A stretch of 64,000 bases of DNA, from the NCBI GenBank assembly GCA_016722945.1, contig JAEQMT010000010.1, forward strand, positions 513,765 to 577,764, read 5' to 3'. Shown here piece by piece: positions 49,027 through 52,633 of the stretch. The notes beneath the pieces are model-generated. The model saw only the letters and a program-made list of their open reading frames with translations. It searched no databases and had not been told where the DNA came from. The number at the start of each line of letters is the position of its first letter. Position 1 is the first letter of the stretch. Origin of the DNA: Desulfofustis sp. PB-SRB1 (GTDB taxonomy: Bacteria; Desulfobacterota; Desulfobulbia; Desulfobulbales; Desulfocapsaceae). Both the position numbers and the translations under genes were made by a program.

Positions 49027-49974
49027 ATGGAACAGAGACCAGTACAACATGATGTAGTACTCGTGGCCGGTGAGGGCTCAGCCGCACTTGGCCGGGCGAT
49101 TGCGGACGATCTTCAGGTATCTTTTTCAGAGATGGTCACCAAACGTTTCGCCGATGGTGAGCGCTATCATGCCTTTCCCGCTGATATTGCCGAGAAACAT
49201 CTGGTTATCGTCGGCAGCACCCACACAGACGAGGCCCATCTCGAGATACTTGATCTCATCCAGGGCGGGCGCTACTGGAATGCCGCCTCCATCAGCGTAA
49301 TTATTCCGTTTCTCGGCTATTCCACCATGGAGCGGGCCAAACATAATTCCTGGGAGATACCCAAGGGGATTACCCGCACCCGACAGATCTACCGGGTACG
49401 GCCCAATTTTGTCGCCTTTATCGATCTGCATTCCGAGGCGGTGCTGCACGCCCATACCGGCGAAGTCCGCACCAAACATGTCTGGACCGACCGGCTGGTG
49501 GTGAAGAAGATCAAAAGTCTCGGTATCGATGATCTGGTGCTGGTTTCACCCGACTACGGGTTCTCAAAGCGGGTGGCGAGGCTGGCGAGCCTGCTCAATT
49601 GTTCTCACACCGCTGCCGACAAGGATCGTTTCGATACCGATAAGACCATCGTATCACAGGTATCAAGCGTGGTGAGGGACAAGACGGTGATCGTCTGCGA
49701 TGACATGATTCGAACCGGCGGCTCCATCGTCCAGACCGCGAACCGTTGTCTGGACGCCGGCGCCCGGGAGGTGTTTGCCATGGCCACACACCTGGTTCTG
49801 GCCGGTGAGGCGCGGCAAAAACTTGGCGCCAGCCCCATTGTCAAGGTTATTGGATCCGATACCGTGCCCGGCGTCGTCTCCGGTGACCTGATCGACGTCT
49901 ACTCGGTAGCACCGCTGATCAGCTCAGTGCTTGCCTCGCATCTCTTTTCCCGACATCGCCTCGCTCGTAGATGA
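49027..49974 (+). CDS. Divergent ribose-phosphate pyrophosphokinase-like protein
   Basis: A 315-aa protein with two phosphoribosyltransferase-fold domains. MVTKRFADGERYHAFP corresponds to the FxDGE region, FIDLHSEAV to the LDLH motif, LVSPDYGFSKRVARLASLL to the usual SPDxGGxxRA ribose-5-phosphate site and VIVCDDMIRTGGSIVQTANR to the PRPP loop. Several consensus positions differ: DYGFSKR for DAGGxxR, IRTGG for IDTGG, and the ATP-binding loop (AKHNSWEIPKGITRTRQ) is atypical. It could be a true but divergent PRPP synthase or a paralogue with altered activity. Histidine synthesis (hisD upstream) needs PRPP, which favours a real synthase role. Confidence 0.75.
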   Translation: MEQRPVQHDVVLVAGEGSAALGRAIADDLQVSFSEMVTKRFADGERYHAFPADIAEKHLVIVGSTHTDEAHLEILDLIQGGRYWNAASISVIIPFLGYSTMERAKHNSWEIPKGITRTRQIYRVRPNFVAFIDLHSEAVLHAHTGEVRTKHVWTDRLVVKKIKSLGIDDLVLVSPDYGFSKRVARLASLLNCSHTAADKDRFDTDKTIVSQVSSVVRDKTVIVCDDMIRTGGSIVQTANRCLDAGAREVFAMATHLVLAGEARQKLGASPIVKVIGSDTVPGVVSGDLIDVYSVAPLISSVLASHLFSRHRLARR

Positions 49975-50002: not shown

Positions 50003-52633
50003 ATGATTACCTCCCTTATCGCCGAGCATCTGGGCCAGACGGAACTTTTTCGCGGTTTTTCCCCTGAGCAGATGCGCCTCATTGCCAGAAGATCCGAGGT
50101 GCGTCACGTCAGTGAGGGGGAGACCGTGTATCGCAAGGGCGATGAGGCCGATTTTCTTTTTTTGGTGGTGGTGGGAGAGGTGGAACTGGTGCTGGAAGGT
50201 GAAGACGGGGCGCAGGCCATTGTCGGCAAGGTCAGCACCGGCGGCCATTTCGGAGAAACCTCTTTTTTTACCGAGAAGGCACGTTCCTTGAGCGCCCGTG
50301 CTGTCTGCGACGGTGTGTTGATCTGTTTTTCCTATGAATCGTTGCGGGCATTGATAGTCAGCCATGGGGTGCTGCGTGAACGTCTTGAAAAGATGCTTGC
50401 CGAGCGCCTGCGGGTATCGTTTCAAAATCAGGCGGACGGCCGGGCCGCGGTCAGCATATCGAGCCGGGAAAAAGATCAGATGGCTGCCATGCTCGGGGCT
50501 GAGAGAGGCTCTGAAGACGGCGCCGATCGGGTCACCCGCTCGCAGCATGCCCGAGATATTCAGGCGGCAATCGGCCGTTTTGCCAAAACCGATGAGCCGA
50601 TTCTTCTCACCGGTGAGCCCGGCACCGGGCGGCGTATGATTGCCAAGCAGATTCACCTGCACGGCAATCAGGCCCAGGGACCCTATCTTGAACTTGATGT
50701 CCGCGACTACAATGGCGAGCAGTTGATAAAAAAGCTCTTCGGCGTCCGTCATGATTCCTCGCCGTTCGCCCGAACCAGGCAAACCGGGGTGCTCGAGCAG
50801 TTCAGCCGGGGAACGATAGTTCTGCTCCATACCGATAAAATACCGCTGCCTATTCAAAAAAAGCTGGCCGAGGCGGTAGCCACCATGACCTTTACCCCCA
50901 TCGGTGGGGATAATTTAGTTGCCCTGCAGGCACGGTTGATCTTCAGCAGCAATTTTTCTCTGGAGGCTTTGAAGAAAGATTTACATATCATCAAGAATCT
51001 GGAGCAGGTGCTGGCGCCCAATCTCTATCATGTGCAGCCGCTGCGTTTTCACAAGCGAGACATTCCCTATTTCATCGGTCATTTTCTCAACCGATTCAAT
51101 CTTGAATACGGCAAAACCATCAAAAGCGTATCCCCGGAGACCCTGGGGATTCTGATGAATTACGACTGGCCCGGCAACCTCACCGAGCTTGCCACGGTAA
51201 TCCAGCGGGCGGTGATGCTGAACCGCGGTGATGAGCTGCGCAGCGATCATATTCTCCTGGGACTGCCCAAAAGCGAGGGAAAGTGGGAATTCAACCTGCT
51301 TCGGCTCGGCTGGGTGCGGGCAATAATGAACAGCAAACTCTTTCCTGCCCTGCCGCGGGCGATTGTCGGTATAGTTTTGCTGGTATCTATCGGCACCCTG
51401 CTGCTGGGCCCGGAAAACCCGGAGGAAAACATCGGCATCACCCTGAGCTGGGTGATCGGCTGGCCGCTGCTCTTCTTTTCGTTCTTTTTTCTAGCGCGCC
51501 TCTGGTGTTCGGTGTGCACCCTTGCCATGCCCGGCCATCTACTGCAGAAAATCATCAAACCCACCCGCCAGACCCCGCTCTTCATTAAACGATATTCGGG
51601 CTGGATCATGGCGGCCCTGTGTATCGCCGTTATGTGGGTGGAGATCGTCTGGAATGCCTATCGAAATCCGGTGCTTTCAGCGTGGATCATCCTCGCCGTT
51701 ACGGCCGGCTCCATGATCTTCTCTGTTTTTTTCAGGCGGCGCACCTGGTGCCGCTACCTCTGCCCGCTTGGCGCCATCAATGCCATTTTCGCCATGCCGG
51801 CGGTGTTGGAGGTGCGTTCCAACCGCCATCTCTGCATGAACCAGTGCAGTGACCATGCCTGCTATGCGGGAGACAACGATGAACAGGGCTGTCCCATGTT
51901 TCGCCATCCCTTTATGGTAGATAATAACCGGGACTGTATCGTCTGCGGCCAGTGCATGAAAAGCTGTACAAAGCAATCGATTCAGCTCAACGTGCGGATG
52001 GCTCCGCAGGAGTTGTGGAATATCGAAATCCCGCGCCGGGCCGACAGTTTTCTCATTGTCTCCTTAGGGGCAATCTTTTTTCCCTTTGCCCTTCATGAAC
52101 AATTTTACGGGCTGGCCACCTACCTGCACGGCAGCTTGCCGACACCATTGTCATTTATCCCGTGGTGGGCGGTGGCCACCATGTTGTTTTTCGCACTTAT
52201 CGCCATCTTTCAGATTGGTTACTACCTGATGGCGCTGATTCAGGCCAGACTGACGAACATCGATCGGGCCACCATCCTGCCGTTGATGGGCTATGGATTT
52301 ATCCCGATTATTTTAGGGGTGTATCTTGCTGTTCATTTTGAATTGTTCGTCGGCGAGTCGTGGCGTCTGGTGGCCAACGTGCGTGATATTATCGGTCGGC
52401 CGCTGGTGGCTCAAGGCACACGCCTGCTCAGCCCGGATGCCTCCGCCCTGCTTCAGGTGATTACCGTGGTGGGCGGGTTTCTCGCATCATTGTATGCCAT
52501 TCATCGGATTACCGAACGGTTGAAAGGAAGCACCCTGACCAAAAAAGATCTGGTGCTTCCCTACAGTTTTCTTACCGGCTTTGCTGCATTATTTGTTTTC
52601 TTCATGAAGTCATCACGAATCCTGTTTTCGTGA
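50003..52633 (+). CDS. Fusion: cyclic-nucleotide domain, degenerate sigma54-type AAA, membrane polyferredoxin
   Basis: A protein of about 876 aa. A cyclic-nucleotide-binding-like domain (FRGFSPEQMRLIARRSEVRH; GGHFGETSFFTEKARSLSAR) comes first. An AAA domain of the sigma54-activator type follows, but Walker A is TGEPGTGRRMIAK (Arg for Lys), the GAFTGA loop reads SSPFARTR, and the Walker B acid is lost (VLLHTDKIP). The C-terminal half has several membrane helices and NapH/NosR-like cysteines: WCSVCTLAMPG, WCRYLCPLG, CMNQC...C and CIVCGQCMKSC. No DNA-binding domain is seen. It probably regulates or senses through a membrane Fe-S electron path. The ATG at 50003 is preferred to a TTG at 49931 that overlaps the prs-like gene. 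Confidence 0.85.
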   Translation: MITSLIAEHLGQTELFRGFSPEQMRLIARRSEVRHVSEGETVYRKGDEADFLFLVVVGEVELVLEGEDGAQAIVGKVSTGGHFGETSFFTEKARSLSARAVCDGVLICFSYESLRALIVSHGVLRERLEKMLAERLRVSFQNQADGRAAVSISSREKDQMAAMLGAERGSEDGADRVTRSQHARDIQAAIGRFAKTDEPILLTGEPGTGRRMIAKQIHLHGNQAQGPYLELDVRDYNGEQLIKKLFGVRHDSSPFARTRQTGVLEQFSRGTIVLLHTDKIPLPIQKKLAEAVATMTFTPIGGDNLVALQARLIFSSNFSLEALKKDLHIIKNLEQVLAPNLYHVQPLRFHKRDIPYFIGHFLNRFNLEYGKTIKSVSPETLGILMNYDWPGNLTELATVIQRAVMLNRGDELRSDHILLGLPKSEGKWEFNLLRLGWVRAIMNSKLFPALPRAIVGIVLLVSIGTLLLGPENPEENIGITLSWVIGWPLLFFSFFFLARLWCSVCTLAMPGHLLQKIIKPTRQTPLFIKRYSGWIMAALCIAVMWVEIVWNAYRNPVLSAWIILAVTAGSMIFSVFFRRRTWCRYLCPLGAINAIFAMPAVLEVRSNRHLCMNQCSDHACYAGDNDEQGCPMFRHPFMVDNNRDCIVCGQCMKSCTKQSIQLNVRMAPQELWNIEIPRRADSFLIVSLGAIFFPFALHEQFYGLATYLHGSLPTPLSFIPWWAVATMLFFALIAIFQIGYYLMALIQARLTNIDRATILPLMGYGFIPIILGVYLAVHFELFVGESWRLVANVRDIIGRPLVAQGTRLLSPDASALLQVITVVGGFLASLYAIHRITERLKGSTLTKKDLVLPYSFLTGFAALFVFFMKSSRILFS

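Follow-up and report, generated by a model that had tools for sequence, protein, structure and literature searches.

The subject of this analysis is one gene of Desulfofustis sp. PB-SRB1 (assembly GCA_016722945.1, contig JAEQMT010000010.1), contained in a stretch of 64,000 nucleotides (positions 513,765 to 577,764 of the forward strand) that we call the window. Positions 50003-52633 of the window hold, on the + strand, a single open reading frame (ORF) which starts with an ATG at 50003, ends with its stop codon at 52633 and encodes 876 amino acids. Four Pfam families score above their cut-offs on this protein, cNMP_binding (residues 34-120), Sigma54_activat (178-329), AAA_lid_14 (350-418) and Fer4_5 (560-597), and the models for two-cluster ferredoxins (Fer4) score below theirs. 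A first-pass annotation, made from the sequence alone, had placed a cyclic-nucleotide-binding-type domain (CNB), a sigma54-type AAA module and a polyferredoxin in one protein, and the ORF together with the Pfam matches confirms this composition. The features of the gene are listed here by window position, with conservation counts that refer to the groups of relatives described below:

50003..52633, + strand: whole gene, CNB - pseudo-sigma54 AAA - membrane polyferredoxin, one ORF of 876 amino acids; domain order conserved in relatives
50102..50362, + strand: cyclic-nucleotide-binding-type domain, residues 34-120 (Pfam PF00027, 68.2 bits, cut-off 27.5)
50534..50989, + strand: degenerate sigma54-activator AAA+ core, residues 178-329 (Pfam PF00158, 83.7 bits, cut-off 20.2)
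50612..50635, + strand: Walker A, GEPGTGRR, residues 204-211, Lys replaced by Arg, a lineage-specific change (alignment)
50753..50770, + strand: DSSPFA, residues 251-256, at the site of the GAFTGA sigma54-contact loop (alignment)
50810..50830, + strand: Walker B strand GTIVLLH, with Leu275 and His276 at the Asp and Glu sites (alignment)
51050..51256, + strand: AAA lid, residues 350-418, with an invariant MNYDWPGN and the sensor II Arg replaced by Thr394 (Pfam PF25601, 66.8 bits, cut-off 27)
51257..51346, + strand: juxtamembrane linker, residues 419-448, between the AAA lid and the start of the membrane helices, with no helix-turn-helix
51347..52606, + strand: membrane region, residues 449-868, ten hydrophobic peaks of which nine are taken as spanning (predicted topology)
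51506..51517, + strand: cysteine pair C502-x2-C505 (CSVC), in 53/53 close, 25/25 distant fused and 16/16 standalone relatives
51749..51763, + strand: cysteine pair C583-x3-C587 followed by Pro (CRYLCP, a CX3CP of NapH/NosR type), in 53/53, 25/25 and 16/16 standalone
51833..51967, + strand: eight cysteines, C611/C615/C620/C630 and C645/C648/C651/C655, in 53/53 close and 25/25 distant fused relatives

The lid passes straight into membrane helices, which take the place of the C-terminal helix-turn-helix (HTH) that is usual, if not universal, in bacterial enhancer-binding proteins (bEBPs, the sigma54 activators). No HTH appears among the nine Pfam families listed for the protein at an E value of 0.1, in agreement with the earlier remark that a DNA-binding helix is missing. 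In NCBIfam, no family reaches its cut-off among the best 25 of 43 matches, the top ones being bEBP models. Within the linker, G426, K427, N431, L433 and R434 are invariant in the 53 close rows.

The same architecture was searched for in other genomes, as the first-pass annotation had suggested, and was found in at least 54 close loci and 25 distant proteins. A scan of a genome collection, run with six peptide patterns that favour close relatives and thus no census, kept at least 79 loci, and 544 stretches encoded some relative, most presumably of the AAA part only. Among the loci kept, 54 (L009-L062) match most of the 876 residues and the other 25 match the AAA part only. The 54 come mostly from Desulfobulbaceae, Desulfofustis, Desulfopila, Desulfocapsa and the like, finished chromosomes included, with some labelled only Desulfobacterales, Deltaproteobacteria, Proteobacteria or bacterium. 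The match is free of stops in 51 of them; L026 stops seven codons before its end, and L045 and L055, which carry internal stops, were dropped, leaving 53 close rows with the window's own. Contig ends truncate three loci (L011, L025 and L039). With a profile built from 46 rows and a threshold of E 1e-60, the protein was detected in 25 of the 58 genomes that represent the window's family and order, its own genome among them, a count that overlaps with that of the 54 loci (match coordinates coincide, for example, for L018 and L022). Several assemblies have two copies, one in each main branch of the tree (L019 and L043 lie on one chromosome), and the window's genome has one copy of the fused gene.

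The C-terminal half has matches at E 1e-5 in 151 of the 395 genomes of the phylum, own genome included, the weakest of which are short and probably of general ferredoxin type. Outside the window's genome there are 62 matches with E below 1e-40, of which 40, a non-random choice, were examined. The module is fused to AAA in 25 of these regions, from 18 genomes, which hold diverged proteins of the same phylum (two of them, L140 and L142, extend as far as the end of their contig, and no CNB is seen in L140), and stands without the AAA fusion in the other 15. Other fusions among the standalone type, as seen with Pfam, join the membrane module to a cytochrome c with a Met-rich stretch (L152) or to YHS (L155). 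In a sample of 21 genomes outside the phylum that had a separate AAA match in the genome-collection scan, three have a homologue of the C-terminal part, in each case without a fused CNB or AAA. One standalone relative from Bacillus (L162, 7264-8688, 269 bits) lies just upstream of a heavy-metal P-type ATPase gene, and places the membrane module in another phylum and in a metal context. A tree of 53 C-terminal modules (37 fused and 16 standalone), rooted for drawing only and with some rows on long branches, puts the standalone forms in two groups, such that the label needs two changes and fusions or separations were few.

The AAA core matches NtrC1 in fold (1ny5_B, Z 27.2, root-mean-square deviation (rmsd) 3.2, 258 residues aligned). 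We tallied its functional motifs in 77 family rows, made up of the 53 close rows (window included) and 24 distant ones (the truncated L140 left out), and compared them with six control activators picked for having GAFTGA. The catalytic Glu of Walker B is present in none of the 77 rows and in all six controls; its site in the close rows is occupied by His (33/53) or Asn (16/53), together 49/53. At the Walker B Asp site, one family row has Asp and one has Glu, compared with Asp in four of the six controls. An intact GAFTGA is found in 0/77 rows and in the 6/6 controls chosen for it, and two remnants, GAIPSA in L126 and GTFATA in L121, point to an ancestor that carried the motif. The arginine-finger segment just upstream of the lid, absent from the list of defects first given, is also lost, with the first Arg in 2/77 rows, the second in 0/77 and both in 6/6 controls, in columns that, like those of the GAFTGA loop, depend on the alignment of degenerate stretches. 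The sensor II Arg is kept in 2/77 rows and 6/6 controls. The Walker A residue is Lys in 47 rows, Arg in 29 and Thr in one, and Lys is retained in 25/53 close and 22/24 distant rows.

The first-pass annotation had therefore read this protein correctly in its GEPGTGRR with Arg for Lys, its replaced GAFTGA loop and its lost Walker B acid; its case for a dead AAA module holds on the other motifs, and the part that leaned on Lys to Arg is weak because 47/77 rows keep the Lys, which makes the change a lineage trait only. Changes of this kind are established to abolish hydrolysis in the AAA activator family, and would be expected to do so here. The defects common to the family would lie in hydrolysis and sigma54 contact, and the module appears to be dead by shared descent.

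Selection on the three parts was assessed by the ratio of non-synonymous to synonymous change (dN/dS) in 12 pairs, some with a common member, and the ratios are rough because synonymous distances are near 1 in most pairs. For the AAA part dN/dS was 0.05-0.11 in nine of the ten closest pairs, and the membrane part was similar; the exception, L044/L047, gave 0.25 for AAA, 0.47 for CNB and 0.23 for the membrane part, with low synonymous change. L009 against the window gave 0.14 for AAA, and L009/L017 gave no computable value. Mean pairwise identity is 46 percent for CNB, 49 percent for AAA and 57 percent for the membrane part. In most of these pairs, purifying selection acts on the dead AAA module. 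Taken together, the shared loss of Glu, GAFTGA and fingers, the low dN/dS and the constant fusion strongly support a module that would be non-catalytic and reused beside a membrane electron-transfer module.

In the membrane part, the peak at residues 586-604, directly after the CX3CP pair, was taken as non-spanning; with nine helices the loop charges alternate as the positive-inside rule demands, and the N-terminus and all cysteine groups are predicted to be cytoplasmic, which is the most likely placement of these groups in the model. The NapH/NosR-like multi-helix domain with four cysteine groups that had been proposed at first is borne out, as all 12 cysteines are located and invariant in 53/53 close rows (window included) and 25/25 distant fused rows, an invariance which means that the pattern is not due to chance. 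In the 16 standalone forms eleven of the cysteines are invariant; the twelfth, C611, has a different residue in its column in four of them, mostly with a cysteine nearby. C540 is present in 53/53 close rows but in just 2/25 distant fused ones. The eight clustered cysteines would be enough for two [4Fe-4S] clusters. AlphaFold2 modelled the whole protein with a mean pLDDT (per-residue confidence) of 77 and a pTM (overall fold score) of 0.53, and the C-terminal part alone with 79 and 0.80. The best fold match of the membrane part (Z 6.9, rmsd 2.9, 82 residues) is in a range that the tool calls common, and formate hydrogenlyase subunit 6 (E 0.065, 33 profile positions) is the sole solved structure matched by sequence at E 0.1 or better. 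NapH, NosR and CcoG are not among the structure matches listed for this part, which proves nothing.

The CNB matches chains of CRP/GlxR in fold (Z 19.3-19.8, 149-153 residues aligned). Its phosphate cassette, in which a Glu and an Arg have a role in cyclic-nucleotide binding, keeps H82, G84 and E85 in 53/53 close rows and F83 in 52/53; R94 is present here and in 23/53 close rows in all, and lost in 30/53. The window's genome has one class III cyclase match over the cut-off (50.4 bits, cut-off 21.9). A Pfam domain scan that covered three of the 25 distant fused proteins gave the order CNB-GAF-AAA-membrane for L119 and FHA-CNB-AAA-membrane for L137. Input domains differ among members and the membrane part is constant. 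One long-branch member of 1197 residues (L060, 7983-11573) has its CNB match separated from its AAA match by about 360 residues, and adjoins genes that by eye resemble his genes.

The explanation we favour, which we hold tentatively and at a little under an even chance, is that a bEBP chassis has been redirected from DNA to an electron carrier of NapH-like type in the membrane, giving a signal-gated redox protein. The order of an activator, input domain, AAA+ ring module and output domain, would have been kept. The AAA+ module would have become a pseudo-ATPase acting as an assembly and coupling element through which the protein may oligomerise, and, where an activator has its DNA-binding output, there would now be a NapH-like membrane polyferredoxin that carries two cysteine pairs and two sites for ferredoxin-type clusters. 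Electrons would pass via the clusters between the quinone pool and a cytoplasmic partner. The path would be opened or closed by ligands of the N-terminus, a putative cyclic nucleotide here and, in some relatives, signals to a GAF or FHA domain, and the gating would be transmitted via the AAA lid and the conserved juxtamembrane linker. The varying inputs and the standalone membrane modules, which lack CNB and AAA in 15/40 regions and in three outside-phylum genomes, suggest an output role for the membrane part and not that of a sensor, and hence the reverse of a redox-responsive transcription regulator. As to the first proposal, that the AAA module serves as a non-catalytic scaffold or a redox-responsive regulator, its non-catalytic reuse agrees with the motif loss, the dN/dS and the fusion, and the choice between scaffold and regulator is not settled by the sequence. 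We consider it doubtful, though worth stating, that gating of a quinone-linked polyferredoxin by a pseudo-AAA ring, in response to cytoplasmic second-messenger, GAF or FHA signals, defines a new class of membrane electron-transfer proteins built on an activator chassis, in which the machinery of transcription activation would serve to control electron flow directly.

Several observations weigh against this signal-gated redox protein. Arginine fingers make inter-subunit contacts in active rings, and their loss removes such contacts from the proposed oligomer. With R94 in only 23/53 rows, cyclic-nucleotide binding is probably not universal in the family. Were the 586-604 peak to span the membrane, the eight ferredoxin cysteines would fall on the opposite side. 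Much of the ferredoxin segment has a pLDDT below 50 in both AlphaFold2 models, and a fold search with the membrane part alone gave no match at E <=0.001, solved structures offering no clear one. Family models for the supposed relatives score far below their cut-offs, with 47.6 bits against 213.05 for TIGR02163 (NapH/MauN) and 19.6 against 1000 for NF046105 (NosR). The linkage to a phosphoribosyl pyrophosphate (PRPP)-synthetase-like gene, described below, does not follow from the proposed role, and neighbour clustering found no gene common to the whole fused family and thereby no redox partner.

A different role, which we regard as unlikely but a serious contender, is that of a redox-sensing transcription co-regulator, in which the polyferredoxin would be a sensor for the redox state of quinone or metal, and the pseudo-AAA module would form mixed rings with an active sigma54 activator and so tether, poison or release it. 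In its favour, the protein retains a conserved AAA fold and lid, the distant loci L122 and L124 have the gene of an NtrC-type regulator immediately before the fused gene in the same orientation, and bEBPs without GAFTGA can act at sigma70 promoters, as NtrC does in Caulobacter and Rhodobacter according to an excerpt of PMC10274813. Such a co-regulator is at odds with the missing DNA-binding domain and the lost arginine fingers. An adjacent activator occurs in just 2/25 distant fused loci, and an activator-type gene within about 5 kb in the close loci L036, L050 and L052 is no more than chance, because about 23 AAA matches are spread over the 4.7 Mb of the window's genome. Moreover, since the N-terminal signal domains vary, the protein seems itself to receive cytoplasmic signals.

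Rather improbable, in our estimate, is a constitutive scaffold, where CNB and AAA merely assemble or anchor the polyferredoxin in a multimer or partner complex without ligand control. The Walker A Lys is lost in 30/77 rows (29 Arg and 1 Thr) and the CNB Arg in 30/53, so that neither nucleotide site is needed family-wide, but the rest of the CNB cassette is invariant or nearly so, the GAF and FHA additions of some lineages would be needless in a pure scaffold, and relatives of the membrane module exist without any CNB-AAA part. We give still less credence to a metal reductase, whose C-terminal module would reduce copper or another metal like CcoG, which an excerpt of PMC8267372 describes as a cupric reductase, with the N-terminus tuning it; this would be compatible with the signal-gated carrier. 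Some standalone relatives are neighbours of a YtkA-like gene (L138) or of the P-type ATPase gene (L162), and others are fusions with YHS or with the Met-rich cytochrome c; against this, the other standalone group lies by trp genes (L144 and L145) or MgtE/CNNM-type genes (L157), and none of five scanned neighbours of fused forms (two each in L128 and L122, one in L036) is a metal gene, which is weak evidence. A sequencing or frame error joining two genes, named by the first-pass annotation as what would refute it, or a decaying pseudogene, has just the unusual architecture and the internal stops of two of 54 relatives in its favour and was rejected as practically negligible, the fusion being intact, with no stop in the match, in 51/54 relatives, finished chromosomes included, and dN/dS being low in most pairs.

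The closest neighbour of the fused gene is the following:

49027..49974, + strand: divergent PRPP-synthetase-like gene, 28 bp upstream of the fused gene (Pfam and NCBIfam)

A gene of the same sequence cluster as this one directly precedes the fused gene in at least 22 of 55 loci (54 relatives and the window), a lower bound given that several contigs end near the gene and that antisense ORFs replaced the real ones in the gene calls (leuB or prs in L014, L021, L026, L027, L029, L040 and L061). Before it lie hisD, rsmG and leuB, named by eye, and a second Prs elsewhere in the window's genome, 27 percent identical, is canonical by eye. A functional link between the fused and the PRPP-synthetase-like gene is possible. 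Neighbour clustering, applied to the 54 relatives, the window and the 40 further regions, gave this one conserved order, in one main branch; in the second main branch it found no neighbour common to more than three loci, most neighbours having no family scan. There, the gene immediately before the fused gene in L036 (7433-7894) encodes a universal stress protein by Pfam, and a similar protein is encoded at the same place in L050 (7402-7905). In L122 (2439-8065) and L124, the NtrC-type regulator gene upstream of the distant fused gene is preceded by a histidine kinase gene, as assigned by Pfam in the former and by the same clusters in the latter. Standalone polyferredoxins follow right after trpB and trpA in a trp cluster in L144 (5352-6716, by Pfam) and L145 (4661-6022, by clusters). 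Upstream of fused genes, sigma54 promoters are not enriched, in keeping with the favoured explanation: a strict pattern matched 0/71 (background 0.3 percent), and a loose one 2/71, compared with 6.8 percent in random windows, coding sequence included.

Searches of the open-licence PMC literature aimed at this architecture, with the papers listed judged by title and opening of the abstract, gave no description of the combination; its parts are known. The family is unnamed and frequent in the window's phylum, and automatic annotation may label its members sigma54-dependent regulators, which the motifs contradict. Should the gating model prove right, anaerobes would regulate the electron flow in their membranes directly by second messengers, and a classical transcription ATPase would have turned into a signal transducer that needs no catalysis.

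Compared with sigma54 activators such as NtrC1, PspF and FleQ, the protein is alike in the fold of AAA core and lid and in its input-AAA-output order, and differs in having lost the catalytic Glu, GAFTGA, the arginine fingers and the sensor II Arg, and in having a membrane output and no HTH. The bEBPs without GAFTGA (NtrC of Caulobacter and Rhodobacter, VpsR of Vibrio) share the loss of the sigma54-contact loop and keep their HTH, whereas the protein described here has none and is fused to a membrane redox module. These bEBPs regulate sigma70 promoters, as stated in the excerpt of PMC10274813.

On the membrane side, the quinol dehydrogenase subunit NapH/MauN shares the Fer4_5 membrane module, the cysteine pairs and two ferredoxin-type cluster sites; the protein here has in addition about five membrane helices after the clusters and a large cytoplasmic N-terminus, and its first cysteine pair is CX2C, not CX3CP. 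NosR and RdhC (PceC) also have a membrane module with cysteine motifs, and their FMN_bind feature has no match among the Pfam families listed for the 876-residue protein. According to an excerpt of PMC5928378, an initial assignment of NosR and RdhC as transcription regulators gave way to a link with electron transfer, for NosR also with activation of nitrous oxide reductase, and NapH is proposed to oxidise quinol. By analogy, this history would be both a warning and a precedent for the reading given here. CcoG is not known to have a fused N-terminus like this one, and the NCBIfam families listed as matching the C-terminal half include none for CcoG, no CcoG sequence having been aligned. Compared by description only, and from the excerpt of PMC8267372, CcoG is alike in being a membrane protein whose ferredoxin-type cysteine motifs face the cytoplasm. 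The CNB resembles those of CRP/PKA type in fold and in its E85/R94 phosphate cassette, and differs from them in that it has no DNA-binding or kinase partner and that R94 is not conserved in the family. By the features tested, the protein belongs to neither of its parent families, bEBP and NapH/MauN, while the folds or motifs are theirs.

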